From Polyangia bacterium (GTDB taxonomy: Bacteria > Myxococcota_A > Polyangia > Polyangiales > Sandaracinaceae): 49,866 bases of DNA. How positions within the stretch are numbered: the first letter of the stretch is position 1; each line of letters starts with the position of its first letter. The notes beneath the pieces are model-generated. The model made no database searches, was not told the origin of the DNA, and saw only the letters and a list, made by a program, of their open reading frames with translations. Where the stretch lies: NCBI GenBank assembly GCA_030426845.1, contig JAUHXR010000022.1, positions 1 through 49,866 on the forward strand, in the 5' to 3' direction. The translations under genes and the position numbers were made by a program. Below are positions 9,557 to 48,328 of the stretch, one piece after another.

Positions 9557-10315
9557 GTGATCGGCTCTGTCTCGACCCGCTTCGGTCTACCGACCCGCGT
9601 CCAGTACGCGGGCGAGGTCCAGGCCGACTCCGCCTGGCGTCCGCACGGCCAGCAGGCGAGCCAGCACGCGCGCGGGATCACCGATCGCCACGTCCCGCCC
9701 ACCGCGCAGACCGAGGCCGGCGCGACCGAGCGCGGGGTCAGCCCCGAGGAGCGACGCAGCGCGCCGCCGCCCGGCGAGCCGCGGAAGGATGGCGCGAACG
9801 GCGAGGCCCAGAGCGCCGACGAGCTGAGCGCCGACGAGCTGAGCGCCGACGACCAGAAGGAGGTCCAGCGCCTCCAGAAGCGCGACGCCGAGGTCCGCCA
9901 GCACGAGCAGGCCCACGCCGCGGCGGGCGGTGCCCACGCGGGCGCGCCGAAGTACGAGTACGAGACCGGACCCGACGGCAAGCGCTACGCGGTCGGCGGC
10001 GAGGTCCCGATCGACGTCTCGCCGGTCCAGGGCGATCCCGGCGCGACCATCCAGAAGATGCAGCAGGTGCTGCGCGCGGCCCTCGCGCCGGCCCAGCCGT
10101 CCGGCCCCGACCGCAACATCGCGGCCGGCGCCCGCGCCAAGCTCGCGCGCGCCCAGGCGGAGATGCGCAAGGAGTCTTCCCCCGAGGAGTCCGAGGACGG
10201 CGGCGCGGGGATGCGCGCGGCCAGCGCCTACGCCAAGGCCGGCGCCGCCGACGTGCCCACGAGCACGATCCAGACGATGGCCTGCGAGAGCTGCGGCGGA
10301 GCGCACTCGCCCTAG
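9557..10315 (+). CDS. SprA-related putative metalloprotease
   Basis: 252 aa. The start is GTG with GGAGG eight bases upstream. The N-terminal half is disordered and contains a SADELSADELSADD repeat. The conserved core is VRQHEQAHAAAGG (H116-E117-x-x-H120, a zincin-type HExxH), then YEYETGPDGKRYAVGGEVPID, the hallmark of the SprA-related family. The C-terminus ends with a CxxC pair (MACESCGG). No signal peptide is seen. Family members are predicted metallopeptidases of unknown substrate. The TAG stop codon at 10313-10315 overlaps the left arm of palindromic element A, so the element directly abuts the coding sequence. Confidence 0.82.
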   Translation: MIGSVSTRFGLPTRVQYAGEVQADSAWRPHGQQASQHARGITDRHVPPTAQTEAGATERGVSPEERRSAPPPGEPRKDGANGEAQSADELSADELSADDQKEVQRLQKRDAEVRQHEQAHAAAGGAHAGAPKYEYETGPDGKRYAVGGEVPIDVSPVQGDPGATIQKMQQVLRAALAPAQPSGPDRNIAAGARAKLARAQAEMRKESSPEESEDGGAGMRAASAYAKAGAADVPTSTIQTMACESCGGAHSP

Positions 10316-10480
10316 GAGCTTCATTCGCTACCGGCGCGATGCGGATCCCGGAGCGCCATGCGTTCGGATCGGCGTCGGACGTGACGAGGCGATGCTCGGG
10401 CATCGTCGAGGAGCGGCCGGCGGCGAGGCGGACGCTTGCCGCCCGGGAGGCGCCCCGCGACGGTGGTGAATCAAGCTCCT
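10314..10480 (+). repeat. Palindromic element A (167 bp): terminal inverted repeats plus conserved core
   Basis: The left arm AGGAGCTTCATTCGCTACC (10314-10332) pairs with the right arm GGTGGTGAATCAAGCTCCT (10462-10480): 16 of 19 Watson-Crick pairs, and as plus-strand RNA two of the three mismatches become G-U wobbles. Inside, 10378-10421 is a 44-nt core nearly identical (42/44) to the inverted core of element B at 13121-13164. The core holds an 8-bp stem GGCGATGC/GCATCGTC (10388-10407) with loop TCGG. No ORF is supported inside. It could be a MITE-like repeat or a structured RNA in the 3' region of the metalloprotease gene. Confidence 0.8.
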
Positions 10481-10579
10481 GGGAGCACGCCGGAGGATCC
10501 GAGGCCGGCCGGGACCCGGCTCGCACCCACGCACGCTCCCTCGACGTTCCTCGCCGCCGCCACAACTCCGCCACATCGG

Positions 10580-11401
10580 ATGAAGACCGTGGTCCTCATG
10601 CAGCGAACCACGCTCCTCTCCGTCGCCGTCCTCCTCACCCTCACCGGCTGCGGCTTCGGCCTCGGCGACGATCTCGCCCGCGCCGACGAGCCCCAGGTCG
10701 CCTTCGCCGACGACGCCCCGGGCTGGTCCGACGTCAGCTCCGGCCGGTACCGGCCGAGCGCCCCTGACGCGAGCGACCTCGAGGCCGACCTCCATGGCCT
10801 CTACCTCGCGCCGCCGGACCGCGCCCTCGTGCGCGTGACCGTCCGCGCCGAGACCGAGGGCTCGCGCGAGGCCGCCGGGCAGCGGGTCCGCGAGGTCGCC
10901 GCGTCCGTCCGCGACGCGCTCGGGCAGGGCGAGCCGTGCCGCGCCCAGGTCATCGACTACAGCGGCCTGCGCCGGAGCGGCGACACCTGGAGCGGCGACG
11001 CGACCCTCCGCTACGACGTCGACCTGCGCGGGCTCGAGGACGCGGGGGCGCGCTTCGAGCGCCTCGAGGCCTGCATGCGGCGGTTCGGGGCCCTCGACGC
11101 GGGCGGCGCGAGCGACGTCCGGGTCTCCGCGCCGATCGTCACCGTGGACGACCCCGACGCGCACCGCGAGGCGCTGCTCCGCCGGGCGGCCGAGGGGCGA
11201 CGCGCGGTCGAGGCGATGGACGCGCTCCCCGGCGCGCCCGCGGCGCGGACCTGCTACAGCCGCGGCGACGTCACCCTCGGGCGGCGCTCGCTCCGCGGCG
11301 TCGCGCTCCAGCTCGACCTCGAGTGCCCCTCCACCCCGCCGGGCGCGGCCGCGCCGGGCGCCCTCGCGGCCAGCCCCGGGATCGTCGACGGGACCCTCTG
11401 A
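10580..11401 (+). CDS. SIMPL-like (DUF541-type) lipoprotein
   Basis: 273 aa from the ATG at 10580, or 267 aa from the ATG at 10598, which gives a compact signal peptide. The lipobox is LTGC. Residues ~70-175 (ALVRVTVRAETEGSREAAG, CRAQVIDYSGLRRSGDTWSG, YDVDLRGLEDAGARFERLE) alternate strands and helices in the way of SIMPL/DUF541 periplasmic proteins; this match is by eye only. The C-terminus is Ala/Pro/Gly-rich. Function unknown; probably attached to a membrane facing the periplasm. It lies 99 bp after element A and converges with the next gene. Confidence 0.75.
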   Translation: MKTVVLMQRTTLLSVAVLLTLTGCGFGLGDDLARADEPQVAFADDAPGWSDVSSGRYRPSAPDASDLEADLHGLYLAPPDRALVRVTVRAETEGSREAAGQRVREVAASVRDALGQGEPCRAQVIDYSGLRRSGDTWSGDATLRYDVDLRGLEDAGARFERLEACMRRFGALDAGGASDVRVSAPIVTVDDPDAHREALLRRAAEGRRAVEAMDALPGAPAARTCYSRGDVTLGRRSLRGVALQLDLECPSTPPGAAAPGALAASPGIVDGTL

Positions 11402-11423
11402 GCCAGCGACCTCGAGAGGTGAC

Positions 11424-11984
11424 TCAGCCGTCGTAGCCGGCCGCGATCAGCAGCTCGCGGTCGGACGCGGAGCTCATCGCGCACGGGACCTCGAAGACGA
11501 GGTAGACGTGGGAGCCGCTCTGGATGCTGCTCGGCATCTCCGACTCCGCGAAGTAGCGGCTGCTCGAGATCTCGAACGACGACTCGCCGAAGTGCCGCGC
11601 CTCGACCTCGGGCCGCGGCGCGTGGCCGTAGTAGGCCTCGGTCGCGTCGAGCTCGACGAAGCACTGGCCGTCGGCCGGGGTCAGGTCCTCGAAGAAGCCG
11701 TCGTCGACCTCGACGCTCCGCGCGCTCACCTGACCGTCGCCGCGGACGAGCTCGACCGCGTGGGTCCCCTGCTCGAGCTCGATCTCTCCGTGCTGCGCCG
11801 GCCCGAGCGTGGCCTGCTCGATCCCGTCCACCCGCACCACGAGCGAGCCCTCGACGGGCGCGACGACGTGGAGCGTCCCCGTGCCGTTGAAGTACTCGCG
11901 GATGCCCATGAACGCCGCGAAGAGCGCGACCGGGATGCCCACGATCAGCGCGATGACGAGCCGGATGTTCCTGAGAATGCGCAT
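11424..11984 (-). CDS. Hypothetical protein with one N-terminal membrane anchor
   Basis: 186 aa. The start follows a purine-rich AAGGGGGGG. The N-terminus MRILRNIRLVIALIVGIPVA then LFAAFMG is a single transmembrane helix or uncleaved signal anchor. The rest is a beta-rich acidic domain (GTLHVVAPVEGSLVVRVDG, ATLGPAQHGEIELEQGTHAV) reminiscent of PEGA-like carbohydrate-binding-type repeats, followed by an unrecognised C-terminal half with two Cys residues. Probably exported and membrane-tethered. No function can be assigned; it is not clearly co-transcribed with either neighbour. Confidence 0.75.
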   Translation of the reverse strand: MRILRNIRLVIALIVGIPVALFAAFMGIREYFNGTGTLHVVAPVEGSLVVRVDGIEQATLGPAQHGEIELEQGTHAVELVRGDGQVSARSVEVDDGFFEDLTPADGQCFVELDATEAYYGHAPRPEVEARHFGESSFEISSSRYFAESEMPSSIQSGSHVYLVFEVPCAMSSASDRELLIAAGYDG

Positions 11985-12074
11985 GTCCCCCCCTTACGTG
12001 TCCCTGTCCCGTCGAATTCCTCCCTGGCGCTTGACGCGCGGCGGGCAGAACCGGCAAATGCGCAGGGTAGCCCC

Positions 12075-13046
12075 GTGCTGGATCTCGCGCTCTACGACAA
12101 GGTCCACCTCAGCCGCCGCCCCCCGGCGCAGCGGCTCATCGCCGAGCTGTTCCTGCGCTTCGACTACCGCAAGGTCGACCTCGTGGTGGAGGGCCTGTCG
12201 AACCTCCCGGACCGCCCGGTGGTCCTCGCGATGAACCACACCGACAACTTCAATTACTGGCCTCTGCAGTATCGGATGCACCAGGAGGACCGATACACCG
12301 CGACCTGGGTCAAGGGGAAGAACTACGAGGGCCGCGGGGTCAGCGCGTTCATGCGGTGGACGAACAACATCCCCATCGCGTCGCGCGGCTACGTGATCAC
12401 GCGCGACTTCCTCAACGTCCTCGGGCGGCGCCCCGACCCGGACGAGTACCGGGCGCTCCGCACCGCGATCGACCAGCTCACGCCGGTTCCGCGCGGCGCG
12501 GTCCCGGCCCGGCTCCTCGAGCAGGGCCGCGACATGCTCGGCCGCCGCTTCGACCCACGCGCCGAGGCGTACCACGAGGCGATCGAGGGCCTGATGGACG
12601 CGCTCACCGGGCGGTTCCTCGACCTGAACCGCAAGGCCCACGACGTGGGCTGCGACGTCCTCGTGTTCCCGCAGGGCACCCGCAGCATCCGCCTGTCGCG
12701 CGGGCACATCGGCCTCGCGCAGATCGCGATCTTCCTCGGCGCCGACATCGTCCCGGTCGGCTGCAACGGGACCGACACCCTCTACCCGGGCCGCAGCTTC
12801 CGCGCGAAGCCTGGCCGCGCGGTCTATCGAATCGGCGAGCCGATCCCCCTCGCGAGCTTCGGCGACCTGCTCCCCGGGCCGTCGTTCAAGCCGTTCACAC
12901 GCGAGGGCGAGGAAGCCCACCGCGCGTCGCTCCAGGCGATGGTCGACCGCGTGATGGACGCGATCAACGGGCTGCTCGACCCGCCCTACCAGTACAGCGA
13001 CGAGAAGGAGAGCGACGGCACGAGCGGCACCGACCGCTTCGTGTGA
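12075..13046 (+). CDS. PlsC-like 1-acyl-glycerol-phosphate acyltransferase
   Basis: 323 aa from GTG. Acyltransferase motif I appears as AMNHTDNFNYW (NHx4D type, where D is replaced by N in NHTDNFN but an earlier Asp is present) and motif III as FPQGTRSIRLSRGHIG (usual FPEGTRS). Motif IV is likely DIVPVGCNG. An insertion of ~90 residues (PDPDEYRALRTA to DLNRKAHDV) separates the motif I and III blocks, longer than in standard PlsC. These enzymes transfer acyl chains to lysophosphatidic acid or related lipids at the inner membrane. The Gln for Glu in motif III and the altered motif I make the exact substrate uncertain. Its stop is 15 bp before element B. Confidence 0.8.
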   Translation: MLDLALYDKVHLSRRPPAQRLIAELFLRFDYRKVDLVVEGLSNLPDRPVVLAMNHTDNFNYWPLQYRMHQEDRYTATWVKGKNYEGRGVSAFMRWTNNIPIASRGYVITRDFLNVLGRRPDPDEYRALRTAIDQLTPVPRGAVPARLLEQGRDMLGRRFDPRAEAYHEAIEGLMDALTGRFLDLNRKAHDVGCDVLVFPQGTRSIRLSRGHIGLAQIAIFLGADIVPVGCNGTDTLYPGRSFRAKPGRAVYRIGEPIPLASFGDLLPGPSFKPFTREGEEAHRASLQAMVDRVMDAINGLLDPPYQYSDEKESDGTSGTDRFV

Positions 13047-13061
13047 GGGGAGCGCAGCGGC

Positions 13062-13228
13062 TAGAGCGCCAATCGGTTTGAAACCGCCGCAAATCACGGG
13101 CGGGACAGCCGTCCGGCGCGGCCAGCCGCTCCTCGACGATGCCTGAGCATCGCCTCGTCACGTCTGACCACGCCGAACGGCCGTCGCGCTCCGAGCTTTC
13201 TCGACTCTCCAAACCGATCGGTGCTCTA
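13062..13228 (-). repeat. Palindromic element B (167 bp): different terminal repeats, same core as element A
   Basis: The arms TAGAGCGCCAATCGGTTTG (13062-13080) and CAAACCGATCGGTGCTCTA (13210-13228) pair at 17 of 19 positions. They differ from the arms of element A. The core at 13121-13164 is the reverse complement of the A core with two changes, one in the loop (TCGG to TCAG). Read on the minus strand, the core starts at element position 65, exactly as in A, and the total length is the same. CGGAGCGC and CGTTCGG motifs upstream of the core are also shared at the same spacing. B lies between convergent genes and its minus-strand 5' end supplies the TAG stop of the next gene. Confidence 0.8.
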
Positions 13229-14524
13229 ATCGCAGCCGGTCTCGCGCGAGTGGCGGGTGAGGTCGACGCTCCCATCGCTCCGCGCGCTCGCGACGAGCTC
13301 CACCCGGTCGACGCCCCACGCGACGCCGACGGGCGCCGAAGGCTGCACGCGCGGCCCCGCGATCCCGTCGTCGCGCAGCCGGGCGAAGCCGCCCTCGCCC
13401 CACGCCGAGCCGTCGGAGGCGAGCCGGAGGAGCGGCGCGATGGCGGCGAGGGCGTCGGCGCGCAGCGGGACGGGCGCCTCGTCCCCCTCGAGGTCGACGA
13501 TCGCGCCGTCGCGCAGGCCCGCGAGCGCGCCGCGCGGCGTCTCGGTGAGGACCGAGACGCCGGCGTCGAGGTCGAGCGTGGGCTCGACGCCGCGGTAGCG
13601 CACGACCCGGCCGCCGAAGCGCAGCGCCAGCTCGCCCAGGCTGACGCGCGCCTCGTCGGGAGCGGCCGGCAGGCGCGTGGACGCGGGCGTTCCGCCGACC
13701 GAGGGGACGTGGATCAGGAGGTCGTCCGCGATCACCCAGAGCCGATCGACCACGCCAAGGAGGCGCAACGTCGCGTCGTCGGGGACCGCGTCGAGCAGGA
13801 GCCGCCCGCGGACGTCGTCGGGGCGGACGCCGGCCACCACGAGCTGCATCCCCGCGTCGGTCCGCTCGACCCACGCGACGCCCTGCGGGCCGGTCGACAG
13901 CGCGACGACGGGCCACGCGGCGGCGTAGGAGCCACCGGCGTAGCCGTGAACTCCCGTCGCAGTCGCGTAGGCGCGCGGAGAGAAGTCGACGAGATCGCGG
14001 ACCGCGGGCGCCGACGGGGCAGGCAGGTCGAACGGCGCCCCCTCGCCGACGCCGGAGATCCAGGATCCGTCCGCGCGGAGACCTCTCGCCTCCACCCGGA
14101 TCGTGTCCACGAACCGTGTGTGGATGACCCCGTTGCCGAAACCGTCGTCGCTCAGCGCGTCGCCCACGGCGATCCCGCTCGCCGGGTCGACCTCGAGCAC
14201 GCGGAAGCAGGACCTCACGATCGGAGAGGCCGCGCCGGAGCCCACGCCCCACTCCGCCTGGATCACCGCGACGGGGACGCCAGAGCCCGTGCAGCCGTCG
14301 AGCGACCCGACCCTCAACACGTCGCCGAGCTCCGCGTCGACCGGCCGCGCCCACACGGCCGGATCGTCGCAGTCGACCTCCGGGGGCGCGCCCGCGTCGG
14401 GCGGGCCGGCGTCGGACGGCCCCGCGTCGAGGCCGGCGTCCGCGCCGGCGTCGCGCTCGTGGGAGCGGCCGCACTCGCAGCCCGCGCACGAGAGGAGCGA
14501 CAAGAGAAGTATCGCGCGGCGCAT
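13226..14524 (-). CDS. Uncharacterised lipoprotein with Asp-Ala-Gly-Pro linker
   Basis: 432 aa. The signal peptide MRRAILLLSLLSCAGC carries lipobox CAGC, then CECGRSHERDAGADAGLDAG and a Pro-rich linker. The mature domain is beta-rich with repeated short segments (RLWVIADDLLIHV, GALAGLRDGAIVDLEG, SDGSAWGEGGFARLRDDG) that suggest a propeller or similar repeat fold, but no family is recognised. The stop TAG is provided by the terminal bases of element B. A -10-like TACGGT lies seven bases before the ATG, arguing for a leaderless transcript. It diverges from the methyltransferase. Probably a cell-envelope protein of unknown role. Confidence 0.8.
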   Translation of the reverse strand: MRRAILLLSLLSCAGCECGRSHERDAGADAGLDAGPSDAGPPDAGAPPEVDCDDPAVWARPVDAELGDVLRVGSLDGCTGSGVPVAVIQAEWGVGSGAASPIVRSCFRVLEVDPASGIAVGDALSDDGFGNGVIHTRFVDTIRVEARGLRADGSWISGVGEGAPFDLPAPSAPAVRDLVDFSPRAYATATGVHGYAGGSYAAAWPVVALSTGPQGVAWVERTDAGMQLVVAGVRPDDVRGRLLLDAVPDDATLRLLGVVDRLWVIADDLLIHVPSVGGTPASTRLPAAPDEARVSLGELALRFGGRVVRYRGVEPTLDLDAGVSVLTETPRGALAGLRDGAIVDLEGDEAPVPLRADALAAIAPLLRLASDGSAWGEGGFARLRDDGIAGPRVQPSAPVGVAWGVDRVELVASARSDGSVDLTRHSRETGCD

Positions 14525-14531
14525 GACGGTG

Positions 14532-14563
14532 ACCGTACACCCGGCGCGCCACCCGGGCATACT
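14532..14563. promoter_or_regulatory. Divergent -10-like boxes between lipoprotein and methyltransferase
   Basis: On the minus strand TACGGT (14532-14537) lies seven bases from the ATG at 14524. On the plus strand CATACT (14558-14563) lies six bases from the GTG at 14570. Neither start has a Shine-Dalgarno sequence. Both genes look leaderless from back-to-back promoters. Confidence 0.45.
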
Positions 14564-14569
14564 CACCGG

Positions 14570-15319
14570 GTGAGCAACCGGACCGACTACGCGAAGATCG
14601 CGGCGACCTACGACGAGGGCTACCGCCGCAAGGAGATCCCCGTCTCCGCGCTCCTCACCGCGATCGCGGCCGAGCGGCCCGAGCCGCGCGTTCTCGACGT
14701 GGGCTGCGGCACCGGCAACTGGCTCGCGGTCCACCGGGCGGCGTTCCCGGACGCGTGGCTCACCGGCGTCGACCGCTCCAAGGAGATGCTCGCCCGGGCG
14801 CGGGAGAAGCTCCCCGAGGACGTCGTGCTCCTCGAGGGCGAGGCCGAGCGACTCCCCGTCGACGACGGCGCGTTCGATCTGGTGGCCTGCAACTTCGCGT
14901 TCCACCACTTCGTCGACAAGCCGCGCGCGCTCGACGAGCTGCTCCGCGCGACCGCCCCCGGCGGCGGGCTCCGGATCTGGAACCTCTGCCCCGAGCATCA
15001 GCCCGGCTGGTGGGTGCACCGGTTCTTCCCGGGCACGGTCGCGATCGACGAGGCGCGCTTCTGGAGCGCCCGGCGGATCGTGGAGGCGCTCGAGGCGCGC
15101 GGGCTCACGGTGGAGGCGAAGGTCGAGGTGTCGCTCTACCGGGCCCCGCTCGACGCGCTGATCGCGGAGGCCGAGCGCCGCGACGTCTCCGAGCTCGCGC
15201 TGATCGACGACGACGCGTTCCGCGCCGGGGTCGCCGCGCTGCGCGAGGCGCGCGAGGCGGGCCCGACCGTGCTCGACGAGAGCGCGCTCCTCACCGTCCG
15301 CGCGCGCCGGCCGCGATGA
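14570..15319 (+). CDS. Class I SAM-dependent methyltransferase
   Basis: 249 aa from GTG. The Rossmann-fold motif I is VLDVGCGTGNWLAVH (SAM-binding glycine loop), followed by the acidic motif II around LTGVDRSKEML, motif III near LLEGEAERLPVDDGAFDLVAC and a post-III stretch LRATAPGGGLRIWN. It resembles the Methyltransf_11 group of small-molecule or quinone-type methyltransferases. The substrate is not evident. The TGA stop overlaps a possible ATG of the next gene (ATGA at 15316-15319), suggesting co-transcription with the peptidase gene. Confidence 0.9.
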   Translation: MSNRTDYAKIAATYDEGYRRKEIPVSALLTAIAAERPEPRVLDVGCGTGNWLAVHRAAFPDAWLTGVDRSKEMLARAREKLPEDVVLLEGEAERLPVDDGAFDLVACNFAFHHFVDKPRALDELLRATAPGGGLRIWNLCPEHQPGWWVHRFFPGTVAIDEARFWSARRIVEALEARGLTVEAKVEVSLYRAPLDALIAEAERRDVSELALIDDDAFRAGVAALREAREAGPTVLDESALLTVRARRPR

Positions 15320-15354
15320 TGGCGCGCGCGGCCCGGGGGCGTCACACCGTCTCC

Positions 15355-16782
15355 ATGCGTCGGACCCTGCCGCTCCTCGGGGCGCTCGCGCTCCTCGCGG
15401 CCGCGGCGAGCGCGCAGCCCCGGCCGCGCCCCGCCCCGTCGGTCCACTACACGGTGCGCGCCGATCCGGCGCTCGAGCACCTGAACGTCGAGGTGTGCTT
15501 CGACCGGACGCCACCCGCGCGGCTCGGCCCGGGGATCAGCGGCGCCGGCCGCGCGCTCGAGGGGGCGTGGGCGAGGCGGCGGCGCCTCCCGGTGGTCGAG
15601 GACCGCATCGTCCTCGAGGGGCTGTCGGCCGGCGACTGCGCGCGCTACCGGGTGGACGTGGACGCGGCCCTGCGCGCGTCGGGGCTGGGCCTGCGGGTCG
15701 GCACGGACATCGTGGCCTCTCAGGGAGCGTGGCTGTGGCGCGATCGGGCGCGCGTGCCGGCGGGCGGCGCGACGATCCGCTTCGCGCTCCCCGACGGCCT
15801 GCGCGCCGCGACGCCATGGCCGCGACGTGACGGGCGGCAGTGGCTCGGGCCGAGCGCGTTCCGGCGCGCGGGCTTCGTCGCGATCGGGCGGTTCGACACG
15901 CGCGCGGTGGAGCGCGCGAGCGGGCGGGCGCGGCTCGTGATGCTGGGCGACGGCTGGTCGCTCGACGCGGACGAGGCGGCGGGGTGGCTCGCTCGCGCGA
16001 TGGACGGCGTCGCGACGGTGCAGGGGCGCTTCCCGGTGGACGACCTGCTCGTGATCCTCGTGCCCCAGCCGGGGCGCGGGATGGGCTTCGGGATGGTGCG
16101 GCGGGGCGGCGGCTACGCGATCGCGTTCCTCGTCGGCCGCGAGTCGAGCGCGGAGGACATCGCCCGGAGCTGGGTGAGCTGGCACGAGCTCAGCCACCTC
16201 TACCTGCCGGCCCTGCCGCGCGAGGACGCGTGGCTCTACGAGGGCCTCGCGACCTACTACCAGGAGGTCCTGCCCGCGCGCGCCGGGGTGCAGAGCGACG
16301 AGGACGCGTGGGACGACCTCAGCGACGGCTTCGCCCGCGGCGAGCGCGGCCGCCGGCGCTACGGGCCGCTCGGCGAGGAGGCGGCGCGGATGCGGCAGAC
16401 GGGCGCGTTCACCCACGTCTACTGGTCGGGCACCGCCTTCGCGCTCGAGAGCGACGTCGCGCTCCGGCGCCGCGGCAGCTCCCTCGACGCGGCGCTCCGG
16501 CGCGGCGGCGCGCGGTGGCGGGGCGATCAGCGAGAGTGGTCGAGCCAGGAGGTCTGCGCGCTCTGGGATCGCGGCCTCGACGGACGCGTCCTCGAGCCGC
16601 TGCGCGACCGCTACGCCGGGCGCTCCGACTTCCCCGCCACCGCCGCGCTGCTGCGCCGCCTCGGCGTGCGCCGCGAGTCGCAAGGCGTCGTGCTGGGAGC
16701 AGGCGAGCTGGCGGAGACCCGCGACGCGATCATGCGGGCCGCGGCCGACGCTCGCTCTACCCCGAGACGAGCTACTCCGTGA
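15355..16782 (+). CDS. Secreted gluzincin-type peptidase (M1/M61-like)
   Basis: 475 aa from the ATG at 15355, which gives a standard signal peptide (MRRTLPLLGALALLAAAASA). An in-frame ATG at 15316 overlaps the methyltransferase stop and would add 13 residues. The active site is HELSH (H277, E278, H281) with a downstream WLYEGLATYY whose Glu296 fits the third zinc ligand of gluzincins. The HExxH-to-Glu spacing is 14 residues rather than the common 18, so the domain is slightly compacted. The N-terminal ~160 residues are beta-rich, as in M61 glycyl aminopeptidases. Likely periplasmic or secreted. It overlaps the convergent transpeptidase gene by 11 bp. Confidence 0.8.
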   Translation: MRRTLPLLGALALLAAAASAQPRPRPAPSVHYTVRADPALEHLNVEVCFDRTPPARLGPGISGAGRALEGAWARRRRLPVVEDRIVLEGLSAGDCARYRVDVDAALRASGLGLRVGTDIVASQGAWLWRDRARVPAGGATIRFALPDGLRAATPWPRRDGRQWLGPSAFRRAGFVAIGRFDTRAVERASGRARLVMLGDGWSLDADEAAGWLARAMDGVATVQGRFPVDDLLVILVPQPGRGMGFGMVRRGGGYAIAFLVGRESSAEDIARSWVSWHELSHLYLPALPREDAWLYEGLATYYQEVLPARAGVQSDEDAWDDLSDGFARGERGRRRYGPLGEEAARMRQTGAFTHVYWSGTAFALESDVALRRRGSSLDAALRRGGARWRGDQREWSSQEVCALWDRGLDGRVLEPLRDRYAGRSDFPATAALLRRLGVRRESQGVVLGAGELAETRDAIMRAAADARSTPRRATP

Positions 16783-48162: not shown

Positions 48163-48209
48163 CGCAATCCCCCCGCGTGCGACCATGAGGGATCTCCGGG
48201 GGGCTGTCT

Positions 48210-48265
48210 AGGAGCTTGATTCGCTAGGGGCCACCTGGCGCTGGCCCGTAGCGAATCAAGCTCCT
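48210..48265. repeat. Palindromic element C (56 bp hairpin) sharing element A's arm sequence
   Basis: AGGAGCTTGATTCGCTA (48210-48226) and its exact complement TAGCGAATCAAGCTCCT (48249-48265) are 17-bp perfect arms. An inner GGGCCA/TGGCCC stem and an 8-nt loop follow. The arm is nearly the same as the arms of element A (AGGAGCTT[C/G]ATTC). It lacks the 44-nt core. It lies between divergent genes, so it is not a terminator of either. Confidence 0.85.
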
Positions 48266-48328
48266 GGCGTCGGTGCCAACCTGCCTGGAGGATACCAGGG
48301 CCGGGAACCGCACCAAGGAGGCTCGTCG

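Follow-up and report, generated by a model that had tools for sequence, protein, structure and literature searches.

Putative IS1182-mobilised miniature transposons with exchangeable ends and a conserved folded core in a Sandaracinaceae-related bacterium

Introduction

Bacterial MITEs are commonly regarded as insertion sequences (ISs) that have suffered deletion and whose interior is unimportant. The long-hairpin members Correia/NEMIS, ERIC, RUP and QMITE2 (PMC2229807, PMC10969869, PMC5896051) are 100–200 bp in length, intergenic and present in many copies, with terminal inverted repeats and short duplications; each forms a whole-length stem-loop, and most have TA at their ends. REP/BIME palindromes with RAYT transposases (PMC3733652) are likewise extragenic and high in copy number; they consist of a 20–40 bp unit with a GTAG or CGTC tag and make no target duplication. 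ISs of the IS1182 family encode a DUF772 plus DDE transposase, and ISPse1, a published member, generates a 4-bp duplication (PMC3281130). Here we analysed two palindromic elements, A and B, in a stretch of 49,866 nucleotides (the window) from a 9.4-Mb Sandaracinaceae-related draft genome of 538 contigs and 95% completeness. In contrast to the usual view of MITEs, the ends of these elements are exchangeable, and the interior is conserved and folded on one strand.

Results

Elements A and B are imperfect palindromes (Table 1) whose common core matches at 10383–10417 (+) and 13125–13159 (−), with 0 matches expected in dinucleotide shuffles. Both fold far beyond shuffled sequences, with z of −8.4 for A and −11.1 for B. 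The sequence-only reading had described such a pair, and the pair is real; the length of 167 bp that it gave to both was an artefact of measuring from arm to arm, the bodies without duplications being 163 bp (A) and 161 bp (B). As read from the alignment, GACGAGG and TCGAGGAGCG can form two tandem G.A pair steps; the centre can be read as CG, U.G and then a C-G pair flanked by two tandem G.A steps. The ORF 9557–10315 (+) upstream of A encodes a SprA-related protein (PF12118, 141 bits) and ends with the TAG of the target duplication of A. At element B, the minus-strand ORF 13226–15514 terminates in the CTA at 13226–13228 (TAG when read on that strand), and an acyltransferase-like ORF, 12078–13046 (+) (PF01553, 32 bits), ends 14 bp before the element.

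Table 1. Coordinates of the elements and their parts in the window
Feature	Position	Strand	Length	Remark
Full-length element A including its two 4-bp target duplications (CTAG / CTGG)	10312..10482	+	171 bp	
Left target duplication of A, CTAG	10312..10315	+		includes the TAG stop of the upstream ORF
Left (5') arm of A, A-type end GAGCTTSATTCGC	10316..10382	+		
Centre of A, conserved 5' side GACGAGG	10383..10389	+		
Apical hairpin of A, CGATGC-TCGG-GCATCG	10390..10405	+		family C has another stem, pairing kept
Centre of A, conserved 3' side TCGAGGAGCG	10406..10415	+		
Right (3') arm of A, end GAATCAAGCTC	10416..10478	+		
Right target duplication of A, CTGG	10479..10482	+		decayed CTAG
Element B, full length including 4-bp target duplications	13061..13229	−	169 bp	
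GACGAGG of B	13153..13159	−		
TCGAGGAGCG of B	13127..13136	−		
Mini-element with A-type ends	48208..48267	+	60 bp	CTAG/CTGG flanks, no conserved core

Searching the host genome with the core at up to 3 mismatches gave 49 occurrences against 0 in a reversed control. At least three hairpin families (A, B and C) of about 160 bp are present in dozens of copies each; these copy numbers are lower limits, as many contigs end inside these repeats and each search scored at most 40 candidates. Family C resembles A and B in size and has the same GACGAGG / TCGAGGAGCG centre but different arms, and its apical stem is GAATCC..GGATTC in place of CGATGC..GCATCG, still complementary. The lack of further copies, or copies with unpaired arms, would have spoken for a mere local duplication; copies are abundant and their arms pair. 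Further or older families in the host genome (L176, L241, L243 and L239) resemble the type of two other genomes, G179 and G180 (right half ..GGCAGGCGACGGGAGGGG..), and the fold of L243 reaches about −160 kcal/mol.

The elements have inverted ends and 4-bp YTAR target duplications and are often inserted at stop codons. The left and right 4-mers are identical in 18 of 58 full copies, compared with 6.8 in shuffles; matched flanking bases number 174 versus 137.7, a value as high in 0 of 10,000 shuffles, and identity is maximal at exactly the 4-mer register. Mobility of the elements is well supported. In a related genome (G175), two IS copies are bounded by B-type ends, CTAG|AGCACCGATCCGTTTGAA ... 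|CTAG, and their transposase scores 306 bits against the NCBIfam IS1182 cut-off of 270. In another (G179), a DUF772 transposase gene lies between the C-type ends CTAG|CAGCCTGTTGA ... TCAACGGGCTG|CTAG; this transposase is under the same cut-off (178.7 versus 270). Given that B-type and C-type ends match those of real IS1182-family ISs in two related genomes, an IS1182-type transposase most likely moves the elements. An IS1182-moved MITE superfamily is well supported for B and C, with a transposase above the cut-off between matching ends for the B type and one under it for the C type. No IS with A-type ends was found in any genome searched, and mobilisation of A-type elements by an IS1182-type transposase would follow by analogy. 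A search of the host genome (538-contig draft, 95% complete) found no DUF772 transposase. The IS5 family (IS427/IS1031, DUF4096) was rejected as a source, with 0 of 7 element-carrying genomes over the cut-off, and so was a REP/BIME assignment: the present elements are about 160 bp with 4-base duplications, and the tag was not seen.

YTAR occurs 9 times in the 50-kb window, 4 of them at the stops of likely genes as called by a simple codon-composition rule that over-calls. The stop codon of a neighbouring gene lies inside the duplication in 21 of 58 full copies, both window elements included. Orientation relative to the neighbouring gene leans antisense (20 versus 8), which does not support a sense-oriented 3'-UTR element. 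One B half-copy (L059) lies within a terminator-like inverted repeat, GCTCCACGG..CCGTGGAGC, in the CTAG that forms its loop, which suggests insertion into hairpin loops.

In addition to the mini-element in the window, which contains a short G+C-rich hairpin, such mini-elements occur elsewhere in the genome (L093, L160, L161, L162, L163, L164 and L167). As these A-ended 60-bp elements have no core, mobility itself does not require one. The ends of L160, L161, L164 and L167 are unequal (GAGCTTGATTCGC and GAGCTTGGTGAGCGC), so that only part of the end is common to both sides. The sequence-only reading had also offered a mobile element recognised by shape: target duplications and IS1182-family ends bear out the mobility, whereas shape recognition in moving is not borne out, as the ends look like ordinary inverted repeats recognised by a transposase and core-less mini-elements exist.

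Alignment of relatives with MAFFT, which is blind to structure, revealed changes on both sides in 20 of 30 pairs, and pairing in 84.9% of cells against 66.6% in shuffles. Double-sided changes amount to 66 cells versus 23 expected, a number that none of 500 shuffles reached. For covariation, the score is 0.49 compared with 0.20 when shuffled (0/500) and far lower, 0.05–0.17, with the partner slid, although prediction of the structure from the same alignment gives it some advantage over the slid versions. The earlier proposal of differing arms with pairing kept holds up in this covariation and in the other arms and other complementary apical stem of family C, and there is strong support for a selected fold. 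Near-invariance marks the centre GACGAGG-[hairpin]-TCGAGGAGCG, including its positions outside Watson-Crick pairs, although the arms are wholly replaced between genera.

The fold is strongly biased to one strand. Under RNA energies, the core strand is 7 to 39 kcal/mol stabler than its complement in 21 of 22 representatives; under DNA parameters, it is somewhat stabler in 22 of 22, a weaker bias than as RNA. G.T mispairs outnumber A.C mispairs by 166 to 47 in an alignment treating both alike, a count that draws on partly non-independent representatives and in which one or two of the G.T pairs fall in the conserved centre. The far better folding of one strand suggests that selection acts on a single-stranded molecule, RNA or ssDNA. 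A structured RNA, which the sequence-only reading had also put forward, is a candidate in view of this one-strand preference. Within recent copies, G.T is only weakly favoured over A.C (67 versus 46), and in B the preference is reversed; the constraint is thus probably stronger on the active lineage than on settled copies, and selection acting on inserted copies is doubtful.

The main alternative to a selected single-stranded fold is hairpin-templated repair. In that reading, the elements would be ordinary MITEs in which the common centre reflects ancestry, quasi-palindrome correction keeps the arms complementary, and the fold has no selected function. Templated correction can give compensatory changes without selection, and among double changes in recent copies 24 kept the pair and 8 did not; the weak selection in inserted copies and the existence of hybrids with mismatched arms fit as well. 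Correction of paired arms, however, leaves unexplained an invariant non-Watson-Crick centre beside wholly replaced arms, and it predicts no one-strand G.T excess of the kind counted. We regard ordinary MITEs as an unlikely account, and a selected single-stranded fold is supported by covariation together with strand bias.

Neighbouring copies form tandem arrays such as C-A-B (L001/L263), which share duplications. Two hybrids join an A-left to a B-right half (L023 and L136), and one A-left/C hybrid and two right-right hybrids are present as well; some hybrids have mismatched arms. A simple explanation of the A/B hybrids is recombination between the identical cores of arrayed copies.

Truncated copies are polarised. 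Among 5'-truncated copies, 16 of 25 keep the 3' half and break close to where the apical loop starts (about −8 to +3 nt), whereas 0 of 10 3'-truncated copies break at the loop; some copies in the truncated set are hybrids or have internal deletions, and breakpoints taken from BLAST are good to within a few bases. This polarity points the same way as the strand bias, to a selected single-stranded molecule. For SbcCD, hairpin cleavage 5' of the loop has been reported, along with a 3'-5' exonuclease activity (PMC6265447). For the half-copies only, and compatibly with mobile elements of IS1182 type, the core strand might extrude as an ssDNA hairpin, be cut 5' of the loop by an SbcCD-type nuclease and lose its left arm to the 3'-5' exonuclease. 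The breakpoints near the loop start, the loss of only the 5' half, the reported cleavage 5' of the loop and the greater stability of the core strand all suit such damage, which we hold to be a real contender at somewhat under even chances. Against it, exact duplications flank three C half-copies (TTAG/TTAG, TCAG/TCAG and CTAG/CTAG), which suggests that some halves were inserted as halves.

The same duplications, together with apical-loop truncations of a single polarity and a strand preference that increases under RNA energies, would be expected of SINE-like retroelements, whose core strand would be transcribed, folded and reverse-transcribed into YTAR sites, the 5'-truncated copies being incomplete reverse transcripts. 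Repeats resembling msDNA have reportedly been seen in Nannocystis, which also counts for this reading. Yet the ends match IS1182-family DNA transposons, A-type half-copies mostly have no left duplication, and the sole RVT_1 protein found is one retron-like reverse transcriptase; we consider SINE-like elements very improbable. The RVT_1 gene (L099, contig C520 of the host genome, G000) has long inverted repeats upstream. A retron msr-msd/msDNA origin was rejected: the only reverse transcriptase is on contig C520, no core match lies there among the matches listed, and the upstream DNA is unlike the element by eye.

Relatives were sought in 318 genomes of the class by a motif search followed by a 12-sequence covariance model. 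The model recovered similarly organised elements in 16 of the 318 genomes, usually several per genome. Their ends vary widely, many being quite different (e.g., AGAGCACATCTC.., GAGCGTGTTTAATAA.., CAGGCCAGTGAAGAAG.. and GAGACTGGTGTCAAAC..), and the relatives have unrelated arms. Some of the weakest model matches, such as L302, may be something else; that locus (in G024) consists of related-looking G+C-rich units in tandem, with CGCGACGACG..GGAGGAGCGC, and may be a different feature. Motif matches outside the class failed the covariance model. Among 15 genome-contig loci, only those of Sandaracinaceae MED-G138 and Deltaproteobacteria Zod_Metabat.169 are real, and those in Opitutaceae, Planctomycetota, Frankiales, Dehalococcoidia, Agromyces, Microbacterium and Streptomyces are chance matches by the model. 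In viral contigs, the strict core pattern gave 0 matches; the loose pattern gave many, and the model rejected all 80 of the 80 viral loci tested.

Discussion

We consider it probable that A and B belong to one large superfamily of non-autonomous miniature transposons, with IS1182-recognised ends, a conserved folded core and exchange of ends. In the proposed model, inverted ends recognised by an IS1182-family DDE transposase would flank a hairpin core of about 100 nt, in which the fold and the tandem G.A centre would be conserved. Transposase supplied in trans would insert the element at YTAR with a 4-bp duplication. Because YTAR is rare in this GC-rich genome and located in large part at TAG/TAA stop codons, insertion there would do little harm. 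New families would arise when neighbouring elements recombine through the common core, as in the A-left/B-right hybrids, after which the arms would be brought back into complementarity in a way that we can only infer. A core could thus change its ends and use another transposase. It would work as a folded single strand of one polarity, either RNA or ssDNA during transposition or replication.

As a working choice, we infer for the core a function in which its strand would act in folded form at some stage in the life of the element itself. More tentatively, the real replicating unit may be the conserved single-stranded folded core itself, probably RNA, with invariant tandem G.A motifs; it would persist across Polyangiia families by exchanging ends through core recombination and using whichever transposase is present, and its fold might act in its own spread, e.g., by recruiting or being processed by a protein.

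The group is a previously unclassified, large one of tiny bacterial jumping elements, in which the arms are repeatedly replaced while the shape of one strand and the central motif are kept. The element would thus seem to benefit from the folded molecule itself. It opens to test the dependence of a miniature transposon on its own RNA or ssDNA shape and its change of transposase partner, and the polarised half-copies provide a natural record of which strand forms the hairpin in living cells.

Compared with known systems, a covarying fold with conserved internal-loop motifs is reminiscent of Rfam structured RNAs, but with six family representatives no family of Rfam 15 reached even E = 5, nor the gathering threshold. 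IS1182-family ISs in the two related genomes share with the elements the B-type or C-type inverted ends and the 4-bp CTAG/YTAR duplication; the elements differ in having no transposase gene, a size of about 160 bp and an internal hairpin core that the IS ends read did not show. In contrast to Correia/NEMIS, ERIC, RUP and QMITE2, several families with unrelated ends here have one conserved centre, combined with covariation across genera, a strong strand bias, and YTAR targets with IS1182 ends.
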